From the NCBI RefSeq assembly GCF_013376105.1, contig NZ_JAAMFM010000035.1, positions 1 through 43,911 on the forward strand: a stretch of DNA of 43,911 nucleotides, in the 5' to 3' direction. Positions 12,795 through 31,791 of the stretch are shown in pieces. Under the pieces are notes generated by a model. That model saw only the letters and a list, made by a program, of their open reading frames with translations, did not search any database and was not told where the DNA came from. Position 1 is the first letter of the stretch. Every line of letters begins with the position of its first letter. Both the position numbers and the translations under genes were made by a program. The DNA is from Arthrobacter wenxiniae. GTDB lineage: Bacteria > Actinomycetota > Actinomycetes > Actinomycetales > Micrococcaceae.

Positions 12795-12835
12795 GGACCG
12801 CTGCGCGGGCGCAAGAATCTTCACTAATTAACAGC

Positions 12836-13090
12836 TGTGGATAAGCCTGTGGATAGTTAAGTGCACAACCAGCATTTCCCTGCGCATAACTACCCTGCCC
12901 CCTGTGGATCCCTTAGTAGGTGCGGAAAGTTCTCCACCGCCGCCCACAGCCGCAAGCGGGCTGGCCCCACACCTTGTGCACAGGGCACATTCCCGGAATC
13001 GCGCAGCCCAGGCAGGTTACCCACAGTATCCACAGGACTTACTAACACTACGAATCCTAAGAATTCTTCGTTTCAAACAACATTTTCCTT
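12836..13090. other. oriC: Probable replication origin between dnaA and dnaN
   Basis: The 471-bp dnaA-dnaN gap holds DnaA-box-like nonamers. TGTGGATAA at 12836-12844 is perfect. One-mismatch copies are at 12848-12856, 12974-12982, 13017-13025 and 13026-13034, with a weaker one at 12903-12911. They are followed by an AT-rich segment, 13041-13090, counted by hand at 32% GC, a candidate DNA-unwinding element. In actinobacteria the origin normally lies between dnaA and dnaN. No gene is seen here. Confidence 0.82.
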
Positions 13091-13265
13091 TCCCTTCCCC
13101 AGACCGGCAGGACGGGCTCCGGGCAATGTCCGCCTCGGCTGGTCAAGGGGCTAAGCTGTCTGCAAGCATGTAATTTCACAATGGCAACACCGGCGCCCAT
13201 CCAGCCCGTCCTTTGCCACCACCGGCACCACACACTTTTCGCATGATGAAAGGCGGCACCCTTCC

Positions 13266-25360: not shown

Positions 25361-25500
25361 GTTTTCCTCCAGGTGTCGTCCGTCTTTCTTTGTTAGCCTA
25401 CGTCGGTCGGTGTCCGCGTGCTATCCCCCGGCAGTTCGCCCGGCGCGGAATGCAGGCACCCGGGAGGAAAATTGCCAGTTTGGCGTGGCAGAATGGCGCC

Positions 25501-26043
25501 ATGACTGCTACCCCAACCGCAAAAGCAACCATCAGCACGAGCCTGGGCGACATCGAGGTATTGCTCTTTGGCAACCACGCGCCCAAGACCGTCAAAAACT
25601 TTGTGGGCCTGGCCACCGGTGAAATCGAATGGACCCACCCCGCCACCAATGAAAAGTCCAACGCCCCCCTGTACAACGGGACTATTTTCCACCGCATCAT
25701 CAAGGACTTCATGATCCAGGCCGGCGATCCCCTGGGCCGCGGCGTGGGCGGGCCCGGCTACCAGTTCGACGATGAAATCCACCCCGAACTGAACTTTAAC
25801 GAGCCGTACAAGCTGGCCATGGCCAACGCCGGCCTCCAGGGCGGGCGCGGCACGAACGGCTCGCAGTTCTTCATCACCACCATCCCCACCGGCTGGCTCC
25901 AGGGCAAGCACACCATCTTCGGCGAAGTGGTGGACGCGGGATCCAAGGCCGTTGTTGACGCCATTGAAAGCGTAGCCACGGGTCCCGGCGACAAGCCGCG
26001 CGAGGACGTTGTCATCAACTCCATCACGGTGGAGAACGTCTAA
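25501..26043 (+). CDS. ppiA: Peptidyl-prolyl cis-trans isomerase, cyclophilin type
   Basis: It catalyses proline isomerisation during protein folding. The single cyclophilin domain fills the 180 residues. TVKNFVGLATGE, the catalytic FHRIIKDFMIQAGDP, MANAGLQGGRGTNGSQFFIT and the Trp-containing WLQGKHTIFGEVVDAG are all present. There is no signal peptide, so it is cytoplasmic. ATG 25501 is chosen; an earlier in-frame start at 25390 gives unrelated sequence. A PpiA gene near gyrA and upstream of a rhomboid gene is a conserved actinobacterial arrangement, also seen in mycobacteria. Confidence 0.95.
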   Translation: MTATPTAKATISTSLGDIEVLLFGNHAPKTVKNFVGLATGEIEWTHPATNEKSNAPLYNGTIFHRIIKDFMIQAGDPLGRGVGGPGYQFDDEIHPELNFNEPYKLAMANAGLQGGRGTNGSQFFITTIPTGWLQGKHTIFGEVVDAGSKAVVDAIESVATGPGDKPREDVVINSITVENV

Positions 26044-26156: not shown

Positions 26157-27017
26157 ATGAGCCTTCCGCTTCCGGGCGCCGGTGCCCCAGCCGGCGCCCC
26201 AGTCTGCCCCCGCCACCCCGACAGGGTCTCCTATGTGAGCTGCCAGCGGTGCGGACGGCCCACGTGCCCGGAATGCCAGCGCAGCGCCGCCGTCGGCGTG
26301 CAGTGCGTGGACTGCGTGCGCGAAACCGCCAGGAACATGCCGGCGCGACGGACCATCTTTGGCGGCGCCGTGCGGACGGGCCGTCCCGTGGTCACGCTCA
26401 CCATGATGGCCATCTGCGTTGCGGCCTATGTGCTGGACCTGGTCATCCCGAACGGCCTCGTCTTCCGGATGTTCGCGTATGCGCCCTTCTATACGGAGAG
26501 CGAACCGTGGCGCATGGTCACCTCGGCGTTCCTGCACTCCACGAACATCATGCACATTGCCTTTAACATGTACGCGCTCTGGATTCTGGGCCAGGCCCTG
26601 GAACCGGCGTTCGGCCGCGCCCGCTTTGTGGCCATTTATTTCATCAGCGCCCTGGCGGGTTCGGTTGGCGTCCTGTTGATGACCCCCATCGACACGACCG
26701 TGGTGGGTGCGTCGGGCGCCATCTTTGGCTTGTTTGGGGCATTGTTCGTGGTGCAGCGCAAGCGCGGCGGCGACCTCCGAGCCATCATCGTCCTGTTGGT
26801 CATCAACGCGGCCCTGGGCTTTTTCATCCCCGGCATCGCCTGGCAGGCACATCTCGGCGGACTCGTGGCCGGCGCATTGTGCGCCGCAGTCGTTGCCTAC
26901 GCACCCGTCAAGAACCGCAACATCATCCAGTGGGGCGGCATGGCCACCGTCGTATTGATCATGGTGGGGCTGACCCTGTACAAGGTGTCGACGTTCCCTG
27001 CCTTCACCATCGGCTGA
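26157..27017 (+). CDS. Rhomboid family intramembrane serine protease
   Basis: Rhomboids cleave membrane helices. The first 60 residues form a B-box-like zinc-binding segment with CPRH, CQRC, CPEC and CVDC pairs. Six or more membrane helices follow. The catalytic serine is Ser186 in VVGASGAIFG and the histidine is His232 in WQAHLGG, so the dyad is intact. HIAFNMYALW in the second helix is another family hallmark. Length is 286 residues and the ATG at 26157 has GAGG upstream. The N-terminal zinc module is common in actinobacterial rhomboids near the origin. The substrate is unknown. Confidence 0.94.
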   Translation: MSLPLPGAGAPAGAPVCPRHPDRVSYVSCQRCGRPTCPECQRSAAVGVQCVDCVRETARNMPARRTIFGGAVRTGRPVVTLTMMAICVAAYVLDLVIPNGLVFRMFAYAPFYTESEPWRMVTSAFLHSTNIMHIAFNMYALWILGQALEPAFGRARFVAIYFISALAGSVGVLLMTPIDTTVVGASGAIFGLFGALFVVQRKRGGDLRAIIVLLVINAALGFFIPGIAWQAHLGGLVAGALCAAVVAYAPVKNRNIIQWGGMATVVLIMVGLTLYKVSTFPAFTIG

Positions 27018-27050: not shown

Positions 27051-27605
27051 CTACTGCGGCTGGATGCTCCGGTAGTCCCCGGCATAGTGCAGCAGCGGCG
27101 ACATGGCCGGCTGCCGAACGGTGGCGCTGCCCATGGAAACCACCTGTCCGATCACCAGCAGGTGGGTCGCCTCCTCGTGCACAGCCGTGGTTGCCAACTC
27201 AAAATAGGCCAGACCGCCGTCCAGGACGGCACAGCCCGTTGCCGGTCCGCGCCGGAACGGCACCTGCGACAACAGGCCCTCGATCGGCGCACCCGGGCTC
27301 GCGAGCCAATTTGCCTGCCTGCGCTGGCCGGCCGCAAGCAGCGTCAGCGCCCATTGGCCCGACGCGGCAACGGCCTGGGCAATCCTTGACCCCTCGTAGA
27401 GGCTGACCAGCATTGTCGGAGGGTCGTAGGACACTGACAGGTAGGCGCTCACCGTCGCGGCGTAGTCGCGCTTCCGCCACACAGTGCTGACAACCCCCAC
27501 TCCGGCCGCCTGCTCCGCGCTGAGACGGCGGTATTCGTCGATGTCGGCCTGGCCCGGCTCCTGGGGGGAAAACTGTTGGGATTCGAGCGGGCCGGTGATT
27601 TCCAT
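27051..27605 (-). CDS. Flavin reductase-like domain protein
   Basis: The protein has the flavin reductase-like (FMN-binding split barrel) fold: AGVGVVSTVWRKRDYAATVS, then LSVSYDPPTMLVSL and HLLVIGQVVSM. These enzymes reduce FMN or serve as the reductase of two-component monooxygenases. ATG 27605 gives 184 residues; 27653 is an earlier in-frame start but lies close to the DnaA-box array. The gene stands alone, with no monooxygenase partner in the window, so its physiological role is open. Its promoter must overlap the DnaA-box-rich region immediately upstream. Confidence 0.88.
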   Translation of the reverse strand: MEITGPLESQQFSPQEPGQADIDEYRRLSAEQAAGVGVVSTVWRKRDYAATVSAYLSVSYDPPTMLVSLYEGSRIAQAVAASGQWALTLLAAGQRRQANWLASPGAPIEGLLSQVPFRRGPATGCAVLDGGLAYFELATTAVHEEATHLLVIGQVVSMGSATVRQPAMSPLLHYAGDYRSIQPQ

Positions 27606-27631
27606 GGTTCCATCGTCCCACGCATCCGGAC

Positions 27632-27985
27632 TTGTCCACAGGACTGTCCACACATGGGCATAACTTACAGAGCTGTAGTTCTAGTAACTGAAAATCCATC
27701 GAACAAGGCTTTTCCACAGCGTTATTCACAATGGGTATAAGTTACACACATGTAATTCCACAGCTGTGGATTACTTTGCGGCGGGAAATTTGTGCAGCGT
27801 GAGACCCACCTTGCCCAAGGTTATCCACTTCTGTGGATAACCTTGTGAACAACTGCCGAGACCACAGTTTTCGAAGACCGCCTGTGGACAGCCTGCGAAA
27901 GTTGTCAACGCCGGTGGATAAGTGTTCTACGGCTTGTGGAAAGATACCCACACTGTGGATAAGTATGGGGACAAGGTGTGAACAA
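27632..27985. promoter_or_regulatory. Dense DnaA-box array distant from dnaA
   Basis: The 565-bp gap between two divergent genes contains many DnaA-box nonamers. Perfect ones are TTGTCCACA at 27632-27640 and TTATCCACA (complement strand) at 27832-27840 and 27954-27962. One-mismatch copies are at 27644-27652, 27710-27718, 27722-27730, 27765-27773, 27821-27829, 27844-27852, 27883-27891, 27913-27921 and 27977-27985. The stretch 27661-27780, counted by hand, is 39% GC, low for this genome. No gene is seen. It could titrate DnaA, control its neighbours, or be an accessory origin. Confidence 0.85.
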
Positions 27986-28170: not shown

Positions 28171-30825
28171 ATGGCGCGCCGGGCTGACGTGGATGACATT
28201 GTTGCGCAACTCAAGGACCGCTCGTCAAGGGGCGTCCTCATCGTAGGACCGCACGGCGCAGGCAAGACCTGGATGCTGGGACGGGTCATGGAGGCCCTGG
28301 ACCCCGGCTGCACCACCATCAGGCTGTCCCCCAGCCAGGCCCTGTCCTCCGTGCCTTTTGGGGCAGTCAACGCCCGGATCGGGCAGGACCTGATTCGCAG
28401 CAGTGACTTTTACGCCGTGTTGCAGGGCCTGATGGACCAGGTCGAGGCGGCCGTGGCGACCGGCAACAGGGTGTTCCTTCTCGTGGACAACGGCGAATAC
28501 CTGGACGGCCAAAGCGCGGCCGTCATCACCCAGGTGGTCATGTCCACCGAGGCCAAGCTGATCCTGGTGGACCACCCGGGCGGCCACCGCACCCACCTGC
28601 GTGAACTATGGCGCGACGGCTACCTGGCCCGCTTCGAGCTGGCCCCGCTGAAGTCCGCGGACGTCCAAAAATTCATCGGGGACGTCCTGGGCGGCACCGT
28701 GTCCATTGCCGCTGCCGACTACCTCTCCAGCAGGTCCGCCGGGAACCCGCTGGTCCTCAAGGGGCTGGTTTCCGGCGCCCTGGAAGAGGGGACCCTGCAG
28801 CAGGTGGACGGGGTCTGGGTGCTTGACCATCCGGGCGACCACCTCGGCACCGAATCACGCGATTTCCTCCAGATGGACCTTGACCAGCTGGAGCCGGACT
28901 CCCGGCGGATGATTGAAATTCTGGCACTGGCCGGCCCGCTCCCGTTGGACGTGCTGCTGGATCTGACGGGCACGGACACCATCGACGACATCCAGCAGCG
29001 GGATCTGGTGAGCATCTCTCCCGGCGCGACCCTCATGATGGGACTCTCCCGACCCGCCACGGCCGGACCCATCCGGCACATGGTGCCCATTGGACGGAGC
29101 CGCCGCCTCCTTGCCGACGTGTCCAACGTGCTTGTTCCCGGCCCGGATGCCGGAGCGGACATGGTCATCAACTTCACGCGGTGGACGCTCGACTGTGGGC
29201 TGCCGGTTGAGGACGGCCGAATCGTCGCTGCGGCTGCCATGGCCAACCAGCACCTGCGGCTCAACGACGCCATGCAGTTCAGCAGCCTGCATGTCTCCGC
29301 CCAGCATTCGGCGGCCCTTCTGGCGCAGCGGTCCATCGCGCACCTCAACCACAACTGGGTGGACCAGGCGCGCACGCTGGCCGCCAAGAGCCTGGAGCTG
29401 GCACGCACGGCCGACGCCGGAGCTGCCGCCCTCCGGGCCGTCCACCTCGCCTACTTTGCCGACCGCGAGTACGAGTCCCACTTTGCTGCCGGGCTTGCCA
29501 CCTATGAGGGCAGGTTCGGCCCGGTGGCCCTGGGCCCGGAGGCGGACCGGCCCGCGATTGACGTCATGATTTTGCAGGCGACGAAGGAATTGACCTTGGG
29601 CAACGCCGCCGAGGCGTCCAGGCGCCTCGGCGGGCTGTTGGCGCATCCCCTGTGTGCCAACCGCATTGACCAGACCCTCCTGAAGTCCATGATGTGCGAG
29701 ATTCTCGCCACCACCGGGCGTCTGACATCGGCCACCAGGCTCGCCCGCGAGGTCATTGCCGAGCTGCAAAGCGACGACGGGTTCCCACGGCCGGACATCG
29801 CCCTGTTGGCCTATGCCCGCGCAGTGGCGGCCTTCATTTACGACGGGAACTGGGAACTGGTCAGGGAGTCCCTGGATCCCTCCGTGTTCATCAACCCCGA
29901 CCTGATGCTGTTCGCCGGAGGACTCCGCGACCTGGGCGCGGCCATGGCGCGGAGCAAGCTCGGACACATCGACGAGGCACTGGCATCCCTGCGTCCCGCA
30001 GTCGCCGCGCTTATCGACTACGACCCCTGGCTGGTCCTCCCCACGGCCCTGGGGCTGTTCGCATACTGCCTGGCGCTGCGGGGCGATGCTCCCGGGGCCA
30101 GGGAGCGGCTCGAGCAGTTCCACGCCGTGGAACGCCGTGGCAGCAGGTTCTACCAGCTGGAGGGCACGGCCTTTGCGGCCGCCGCGGCCGCCATGGCCGG
30201 GAATCCGCAGGACGGCACCCGCCGGCTGAAGGAACTCCGGGCAGATTGCCAGGCCCTGGGCTATGCGGGAACGGAACTGACCGTGCTGACGCTCCTGGTC
30301 CGCATCGGTGACACCTCGGAGGCCGGCCGTCTGGCCGAAGTCGCCGACATCCTTGAATCCGGTTACAGGGACTTTTACCGCCAATGGGCCCACGCCCTCC
30401 TCTCGGGTGACCCTGATGCCCTGGACCTGGCCAGCACCACCGCCATGGGACACGGCTTCGAGTTGATTGCCGCCGAGCTCGCCACGCTTGCCCAACGGGG
30501 CTACGCGGACGATGGCAAGGTACAAAACAGCCGGAAGACCGGCACCAGGGCCATTTCCATGCGGGACAAACTGCCCGGACTGGTGTCACCCGTCTTCAAG
30601 TCCAACGACCTCCCGCAAATGACGCGGCGCGAACTTGAGATTGCACAACTCGTCGCCGAGGGGGAATCCAACAATTCCATCGCCGAGCAGCTGGGAGTGT
30701 CACTGCGCACCGTCGAGGGACACCTCTACCGGACCTTTATCAAGCTGGACCTTCAGTCCAGGGAACAACTCGCGGCCCTGGTGCGGGAAAGCCAAAGGGC
30801 CGACGCGGGCGCAACCGCACGCTAG
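28171..30825 (+). CDS. Large ATPase transcriptional regulator, LuxR-type HTH
   Basis: This 884-residue protein fits the LAL/STAND-like regulator class. The P-loop is GPHGAGKT at residues 26-33 and a Walker B-like LLVDNGEYLDG follows near residue 110. The middle, about 400 residues, is helical and TPR-like. The C-terminus has a LuxR/GerE helix-turn-helix: MTRRELEIAQLVAEGESN and NSIAEQLGVSLRTVEGHLYR. Such proteins switch on genes after ligand-driven ATPase cycling; the ligand is unknown. ATG 28171 is chosen because GGAGGGGG precedes it; earlier in-frame starts exist from 28093. Its promoter lies next to the DnaA-box array. Confidence 0.88.
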   Translation: MARRADVDDIVAQLKDRSSRGVLIVGPHGAGKTWMLGRVMEALDPGCTTIRLSPSQALSSVPFGAVNARIGQDLIRSSDFYAVLQGLMDQVEAAVATGNRVFLLVDNGEYLDGQSAAVITQVVMSTEAKLILVDHPGGHRTHLRELWRDGYLARFELAPLKSADVQKFIGDVLGGTVSIAAADYLSSRSAGNPLVLKGLVSGALEEGTLQQVDGVWVLDHPGDHLGTESRDFLQMDLDQLEPDSRRMIEILALAGPLPLDVLLDLTGTDTIDDIQQRDLVSISPGATLMMGLSRPATAGPIRHMVPIGRSRRLLADVSNVLVPGPDAGADMVINFTRWTLDCGLPVEDGRIVAAAAMANQHLRLNDAMQFSSLHVSAQHSAALLAQRSIAHLNHNWVDQARTLAAKSLELARTADAGAAALRAVHLAYFADREYESHFAAGLATYEGRFGPVALGPEADRPAIDVMILQATKELTLGNAAEASRRLGGLLAHPLCANRIDQTLLKSMMCEILATTGRLTSATRLAREVIAELQSDDGFPRPDIALLAYARAVAAFIYDGNWELVRESLDPSVFINPDLMLFAGGLRDLGAAMARSKLGHIDEALASLRPAVAALIDYDPWLVLPTALGLFAYCLALRGDAPGARERLEQFHAVERRGSRFYQLEGTAFAAAAAAMAGNPQDGTRRLKELRADCQALGYAGTELTVLTLLVRIGDTSEAGRLAEVADILESGYRDFYRQWAHALLSGDPDALDLASTTAMGHGFELIAAELATLAQRGYADDGKVQNSRKTGTRAISMRDKLPGLVSPVFKSNDLPQMTRRELEIAQLVAEGESNNSIAEQLGVSLRTVEGHLYRTFIKLDLQSREQLAALVRESQRADAGATAR

Positions 30826-31536: not shown

Positions 31537-31791
31537 CTAGCTGCGCCAGCGGGTGGTCATCATGAAGCCCGCAAGGGCAATGGCAAAGCCGATGCCGATG
31601 TTCCAGTTATTGATGTTCGGAATCGGGAATTTGCCGTCAGAGATGTAGTAGGTGATGATCCAGAACAGGCCCACGAGCATCAAGGTCACCATGACCGGAA
31701 GGAACCATGCCGCGTTTGGCTGCTGTGCCTTGGAAGACGACGTTTGGGCAGGACCCTTGGTGGGGCGGCGGCGCGGTTTGGACTCGGGCAC
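31537..31791 (-). CDS. crgA: Cell division protein CrgA
   Basis: CrgA is a small actinobacterial membrane protein that helps assemble the septal machinery with FtsZ, FtsI and FtsQ. The 84 residues have a basic, Ser- and Pro-rich N-terminus up to about residue 27. Two membrane helices follow: AAWFLPVMVTLMLVGLFWII and IGIGFAIALAGFMMTTRW. They are separated by the characteristic SDGKFPIPNINNWN loop. Its location beside the pknA/pknB cluster is conserved across actinobacteria. Confidence 0.96.
   Translation of the reverse strand: MPESKPRRRPTKGPAQTSSSKAQQPNAAWFLPVMVTLMLVGLFWIITYYISDGKFPIPNINNWNIGIGFAIALAGFMMTTRWRS

Follow-up and report, generated by a model that had tools for sequence, protein, structure and literature searches.

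A dense DnaA-box array near dnaA in Arthrobacter wenxiniae is probably the Micrococcaceae form of an old actinomycete DnaA-binding locus

How actinomycetes limit DnaA is, to our knowledge, a largely open question. Streptomyces coelicolor reportedly carries DnaA-box clusters outside oriC (D78, H24 and H69), which are said to have been proposed to titrate DnaA, and the locus described here, also an actinomycete box cluster lying outside the likely oriC, may be likened to them by description. A closer counterpart is found in Mycobacterium tuberculosis, for which Hicks et al. (2020) report that DnaA binds the Rv0010c-Rv0011c region by IDAP-seq and EMSA; Rv0010c-Rv0011c is among the five regions most strongly bound in vitro (together with oriC, rpmH-dnaA, the region upstream of dnaB, and Rv3843c-RVnc0040), and the homologs of all five are bound in vivo in M. 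smegmatis, that of Rv0010c-Rv0011c as detected by ChIP-seq (PMC7738170). In that paper, natural variants are described as recurring in a small palindrome at Rv0010c-Rv0011c and as lengthening cells, the initiation rate is given as unchanged in mutants of the region, expression of Rv0010c and Rv0011c is given as unchanged in dnaA mutants, and the authors state that the region has no obvious counterpart in other species (PMC7738170). Rv0011c is crgA (PMC3989709). In Escherichia coli, datA is described as non-coding, as separate from oriC and as lowering the activity of DnaA (PMC4585315), and DARS as a locus in which the opposed boxes I and II assist head-to-head contact between DnaA molecules (PMC8682772). 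Within the open literature that we searched, we found neither a paper linking crgA with intergenic DnaA boxes, nor one that treats the replication origin of Arthrobacter together with DnaA boxes and GC skew.

The DNA that we analysed is a stretch of 43,911 nucleotides from Arthrobacter wenxiniae (contig NZ_JAAMFM010000035.1), hereafter referred to as the window. Between positions 27632 and 27985 of the window lies an array, annotated without strand, of 13 DnaA-box nonamers with at most one mismatch to TTRTCCACA (TTATCCACA/TTGTCCACA), three of which are perfect (starts 27632, 27832 and 27954). A preliminary description of this DNA had counted at least twelve boxes, three of them perfect, in the same 354 bp, and its other measurements were likewise borne out. 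The array starts 14.8 kb past the end of the dnaA frame (15 kb had been given), corresponding in Arthrobacter to approximately 16 kb from the dnaA start, and its overall GC content of 47.5% falls to 38.3% in the lowest 120-bp stretch, at 27658, where a core of 39% had been noted. Box density in the gap that holds the array is 26.7/kb, as opposed to 16.7/kb in the rpmH-dnaA gap (6 boxes) and 10.6/kb in the dnaA-dnaN gap (5 boxes), in agreement with the earlier statement that the array is denser than the gaps beside dnaA, for which about six boxes each had been estimated. Rfam and tRNA scans of the window returned nothing besides three tRNAs.

Clustering of this kind is rare in the A. wenxiniae genome. 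Dinucleotide shuffles of the array (n = 1000) contain a mean of 0.34 boxes and a maximum of 3, and in 300 kb sampled from this genome of 4.33 Mb, as 15 stretches of 20 kb each, no 354 bp contain more than 2 boxes. Across the full 4.33 Mb (88 contigs), we obtained 1108 DnaA-box matches with at most one mismatch, versus 578 for the reversed pattern. Perfect boxes number 69, all of them listed, and at least three of these fall within 400 bp at only two places, one being the array and the other lying upstream of dnaB, within a cluster of 9 boxes. The one-mismatch boxes were listed in part, and the array is the densest cluster among those found, while weaker clusters may exist elsewhere. The second-densest cluster found is the set of 9 boxes directly upstream of dnaB (G000:C15:29321-29566; positions 822-1066 of locus L111), a location that agrees with the dnaB-upstream DnaA site reported for mycobacteria. 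A. wenxiniae has box clusters at four of the five mycobacterial DnaA-bound regions (PMC7738170), Rv3843c-RVnc0040 lying outside this comparison.

The array is built from several recognisable parts. In composite unit 1 (27627-27681, plus strand), the boxes 27632 (>) and 27644 (>) precede palindrome E1, ATAACTTACAGAGCTGTAGTTC (27660-27681, plus strand), and in composite unit 2 (27705-27759, plus strand), the boxes 27710 (>) and 27722 (>) precede palindrome E2, ATAAGTTACACACATGTAATTC (27737-27758, plus strand), such that each unit comprises two rightward boxes 12 bp apart and then a palindrome, which we call E. Palindrome E has the form ATTACA-N4-TGTAAT and is distinct from the DnaA box. Both copies were located by pattern search and were aligned in 22 genomes; exact matches to the pattern ATAASTTACANNNNTGTARTTC occur genome-wide only at E1 and E2, the next two matches carrying three mismatches. 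The box search placed an inverted box (<) after composite unit 2, at 27765, which is followed by a box triad reading > < < (27821-27852, plus strand; starts 27821, 27832 and 27844, with spacings of 11 and 12) and by five further boxes, all < (27883-27985, minus strand; starts 27883, 27913, 27954, 27966 and 27977).

The triad invites comparison with DARS. By our own measurement, the boxes in the cores of E. coli DARS are ordered > < < and start 14 and 12 apart, and the window triad shares this order, with boxes I and II opposed (27821 > and 27832 <) and box III oriented as box II (27844 <), while its boxes closely resemble the DARS1 core. However, the triad, with spacings of 11 and 12, departs from DARS1 and DARS2, and so do the other families that share the layout, in which the spacings are 10 and 13. 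The resemblance to DARS is suggestive at the level of sequence, and the triad falls outside the DARS type by its spacing. The array is also similar to datA in being a non-coding locus outside the likely oriC, and we know of no counterpart of palindrome E in datA. In E. coli, DARS elements act by promoting the release of ADP from DnaA, and datA, whose boxes are combined with an IHF site, stimulates hydrolysis of ATP.

Conservation of the gap in relatives, which the preliminary description had proposed examining, is extensive. Within the genus, the array is present in 21 of 22 genomes at 73-83% identity, and the matches span 347-394 bp in all but one (L022, 186 bp); the sole miss (G009) also lacks a match to dnaA or gyrA. 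When these 21 relatives are aligned with A. wenxiniae itself, the boxes and palindrome E are the conserved parts of the alignment. Each of the 22 arrays holds 10-15 boxes, and the > < < triad, spaced 11 and 12, is retained in every one of them (counting boxes with up to 2 mismatches). Beyond the genus, 12 of 13 other Micrococcaceae genera have an array as well, with 4-10 boxes per 400 bp and no farther than 13 kb downstream of gyrA. These arrays lie directly after the rhomboid gene in all 12 cases, and for 7 of them the 20-kb piece also includes crgA; from the thirteenth genus (G023), the 20 kb examined yielded neither rhomboid nor crgA, nor the flavin reductase or LuxR gene. Similar density at many unrelated regions, or want of conservation, had been put forward as evidence against the array, and a partial check left it unrefuted.

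Gene order around the array provides a test of one of the readings offered by the preliminary description, in which the boxes would place promoters of the flavin reductase gene and the LuxR-type gene under the control of DnaA. In the window, a cyclophilin-type peptidyl-prolyl isomerase gene (ppiA-like; 25390-26043, plus strand) and a rhomboid-family gene (26157-27017, plus strand) form the conserved left context, the rhomboid gene being the conserved left neighbour of the site. The flavin reductase gene (27051-27605, minus strand) stands between rhomboid and array in Arthrobacter, and the gene for a LuxR-type AAA ATPase (28171-30825, plus strand; the frame is open from 28093 and the start at 28171 is inferred from sequence) is a variable right neighbour, whereas crgA, encoding the cell-division protein CrgA (31537-31791, minus strand), anchors the site on its right side in many genomes. 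The distance of 3.6 kb between array and crgA in the window is due to inserted genes. Four parS-like 16-mers (0-2 mismatches) occur at 649, 4347, 4394 and 7314, all of them beyond dnaA as seen from the array.

The promoter reading draws on the divergence of the flavin reductase and LuxR-type genes from the array in A. wenxiniae, which is as the preliminary description had stated, yet the array is retained in genomes that lack them beside it. An exact search for the E2 core in a collection of species genomes returned 68 stretches, 67 of which have at least three DnaA boxes adjoining, and rhomboid and/or crgA is present in the fetched piece for 66. Among these 68 loci, some of whose fetched pieces are incomplete, 10 show the flavin reductase gene and 4 show the LuxR gene, and neither occurs beside any of the 12 arrays from other genera; consequently, we regard both genes as lineage-specific neighbours. 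The one match of the 68 without a cluster is a second E2 match in Sediminivirga luteola (L208), on another contig and with a single DnaA box. Two records titled Sporosarcina and Vibrio cholerae (L188 and L198) contain the actinomycete rhomboid-element context, and are probably mislabelled or mixed assemblies. The promoter reading for the two named genes fares poorly against these counts and strikes us as very improbable.

The site extends well beyond the Micrococcaceae. We found crgA (PF06781) in 190 of 197 genomes of the class and examined 65 of the 190 loci, a non-random set composed of the 30 best-scoring loci and 35 chosen ones (20 for family coverage and 15 more). Of these 65 loci, 61, representing 32 of 34 families, carry a DnaA box in the 400 bp 3' of crgA: among the first 50 loci, 47 have at least one such box and 40 at least two, and the remaining 15 supply 14. 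Box density 3' of crgA in the first 50 loci is 5.83/kb, compared with 0.21/kb in the rest of the loci and 0.60/kb for the reversed pattern. The four misses include a locus from the window's own family (L138), in which the array lies farther from crgA, and neither boxes nor E were detected in the two f53 loci.

Palindrome E accompanies the boxes in most of these lineages. In 46 of the 65 loci and 28 of the 34 families, E directly adjoins two or three DnaA boxes to form a composite unit. Among the first 50 sites, which were unselected for E, 41 score at least 10 of 14 for E, versus none of 49 control segments on the other side of crgA, while only 5 of the 15 additional loci reach this score, most of these 15 having been taken from families already seen without E. 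Boxes without a good E occur at six f37 and six f35 loci, and also in f26 and f50. The six f37 genomes (L158, L159 and L254-L257), which we take to be Streptomycetaceae, have 4-5 boxes beside crgA. Exact DnaA-box words recur across families at these sites.

Spacing and covariation were assessed in a set of 56 segments, consisting of the sites with an E score of at least 10, four loci from a strict pattern search (below) and six hand-picked Micrococcaceae. In this set E stands at a near-fixed spacing from the boxes, although the constancy of E within it is partly by construction, given that the segments were selected for E. Box layouts upstream of E (boxes with up to 2 mismatches) read > > < in 23 of the 56, > < < in 17, and are mixed in the rest. 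In 48 of the 56, every nonamer of the palindrome differs from the DnaA box at 4 or more of 9 positions, whereas the palindrome of the mycobacterial locus has been read as two DnaA-box-like sequences (PMC7738170). That the mycobacterial palindrome is E we infer from its position and from the sequence of mycobacteria-like loci such as L151.

Two further searches addressed how specific the composite unit is to this neighbourhood. A strict pattern of the third box plus E, applied to 197 genomes, yielded 24 matches in 23 genomes and none with the backward control; the window's own array is not matched by this pattern. Of these matches, 20 are beside crgA (19 within 100 bp of the crgA position, and that of G191 placed by tblastn), 2 come directly after rhomboid with crgA elsewhere (G099 and G188), and 2 were left unplaced (G058 and G222). 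In the small genomes G099 and G188 (loci L251 and L252), the composite element stays with rhomboid and not with crgA. A profile built from 50 of the 56 segments, covering 29 families and leaving out the window's family (f1), was then run on 1.63 Mb. The only matches below an E-value of 0.05 in the window are composite units 1 (0.021) and 2 (4.6e-4), and likewise, in two relatives, the 400 kb surrounding each origin gave only the two units of the array; no match in 20 pieces of the A. wenxiniae genome reached 0.05. Among the 13 other genera, the profile matches the array in 12, and it also matches a site between rhomboid and crgA in G043, which belongs to a family outside the training set. Three matches below 0.05 are off-site, two of them in L076 and the third in the dnaA region of G037. 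The former (L076 7908-7959 and 9598-9653, from G028) lie 1-3 kb beyond the array and are possibly extra copies of the unit. The latter (L104 2832-2883; E-value 1.7e-4), from a different family, resembles a composite unit, hinting that the unit can also adjoin dnaA.

The orientation of neighbouring genes bears on two rival explanations. The left neighbour points towards the class-wide site, convergent with crgA, in 41 of 52 called loci (9 were uncalled), which argues further against a promoter, and a promoter of the present neighbours is unlikely. In the other 11 of the 52 it points away, including five loci of f22, a presumably mycobacteria-like family, and a promoter role is consequently possible in some lineages and may apply to f22 and the others of this orientation. 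Convergence raises the alternative of a bidirectional terminator or hairpin between the two genes, with the DnaA boxes a coincidence. Inverted box pairs do form palindromes, and a few sites appear, by eye and uncounted, to have paired departures from consensus in facing boxes. However, paired positions of E, the only element examined in this way, show no covariation beyond shuffles in the 56 segments, so that a protein site fits E better than a hairpin, and we rejected the hairpin reading of E. Moreover, a terminator would need none of the exact DnaA-box words that recur across families, and we give this explanation almost no credence. As for the protein, MtrA was considered as a binder of E and set aside on comparison by eye: E is an inverted repeat, while the MtrA consensus is given as two direct repeats of 5-6 nt (PMC5650626).

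A third reading in the preliminary description was that of an accessory origin, which may be extended to an alternative one. Dense boxes and a core of 38% GC are compatible with this, as is a DnaA-trio-like run in the array that scores 3 of 6, a value reached by 7 of 300 random segments. The dnaA-dnaN gap also scores 3 of 6, so that the trio score does not discriminate between the two, and by this measure unwinding at the array is possible. The dnaA-dnaN gap (12795-13265, without strand), which is the likely oriC, contains a pair of boxes 9 bp apart at 13017 and 13026, followed by the DnaA-trio-like stretch TTACTAACACTACG. In 11 of 13 other genera, this combination was recognised by eye in the dnaA-dnaN gap, while a box pair at 9 bp is absent from the array. 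Published work likewise places actinomycete oriC between dnaN and dnaA (PMC5487470). GC skew was uninformative: in a change-point analysis of two relatives, asymmetry is too weak to place an origin within 15 kb. The fit corrected for gene strand prefers the array side to dnaA in G003, by 1.7 log units, a weak asymmetry, and peaks 60 kb away in G017, such that the two genomes disagree. For raw skew, the minimum of G003 is 3.3 kb away from the dnaA start, and that of G017 is past the array by 13.5 kb. Since the double-box motif sits in the dnaA-dnaN gap, the array is probably not an origin; the accessory-origin reading gains little positive support, and we see hardly any chance that it is correct.

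A further explanation is pure titration, in which many high-affinity boxes near the origin would soak up free DnaA and the palindrome would be incidental or architectural. The array is the densest box cluster found in the genome and is near dnaA, E. coli likewise enriches DnaA boxes near oriC (PMC12371093), and the six f37 sites have several boxes without a good E. Nevertheless, the near-fixed spacing of E, and its presence at 41 of 50 unselected sites as against 0 of 49 controls, speak against this, and many families keep 2-3 boxes, too few to titrate much; titration suits the version with 13 boxes better than those with 2-3. Additionally, the unchanged initiation rate in mycobacterial mutants, as reported (PMC7738170), fits poorly with simple titration. 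Overall, titration in this pure form is doubtful, although possible. Given the mismatch in DARS spacing and the poor suitability of titration to the 2-3-box versions, we favour a DnaA-regulating nucleoprotein site with a putative second, dimeric protein bound at E.

We consider it reasonably probable, on the basis of sequence comparison, that the array is the Micrococcaceae form of an old actinomycete control locus that binds DnaA, is not an origin, and has a predicted palindrome-binding partner. Similarly to Rv0010c-Rv0011c (PMC7738170), the site is a gap in the crgA neighbourhood with a cluster of DnaA-box-like sequences and a palindrome; unlike Rv0010c-Rv0011c, the version in the window has 13 boxes and two palindromes. 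The array lies in the rhomboid/crgA neighbourhood near dnaA, and its boxes and palindrome follow the fixed order, both units being found by the 29-family profile. Many actinomycetes retain the site just 3' of crgA and/or just after rhomboid, and its Micrococcaceae form would be an enlargement to two composite units, a triad and extra boxes. Boxes, palindrome, spacing, position and conservation are drawn here from the sequence, while binding and the cell-cycle phenotype are drawn from the mycobacterial counterpart. Given DnaA binding at that counterpart, the array is probably bound by DnaA in A. wenxiniae and most likely acts on DnaA. In the mechanism that we propose, DnaA would bind the boxes of the array, and a putative second, dimeric protein would probably bind E, which abuts the third box. 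The locus would be copied soon after initiation, and would consequently take up DnaA and/or change its nucleotide state, which may limit or re-arm initiation and couple it to the division cycle. The most likely mode is a datA/DARS-like action or titration, lowering or restoring DnaA activity. Among the three readings of the preliminary description, it is that of a datA-like, DnaA-controlling site which is best supported, and those of a promoter for the named genes and of an accessory origin which are not.

DnaA binding at the mycobacterial site was known already, having been reported without a mechanism or an obvious counterpart (PMC7738170). The present comparison shows that this site recurs class-wide, that most families have it in composite form, and that its version in Arthrobacter-type bacteria is enlarged. 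There is perhaps an even chance, as judged from sequence, that actinomycetes share a hitherto unrecognised DnaA-control element, a nucleoprotein switch composed of 2-3 DnaA molecules and a putative palindrome-binding protein, with a datA/DARS-like role, situated in the ppiA-rhomboid-crgA neighbourhood beside division and kinase genes, and amplified in Micrococcaceae. The class-wide recurrence of the site opens hosts other than mycobacteria for its study, and points to a specific missing protein, the putative binder of E.
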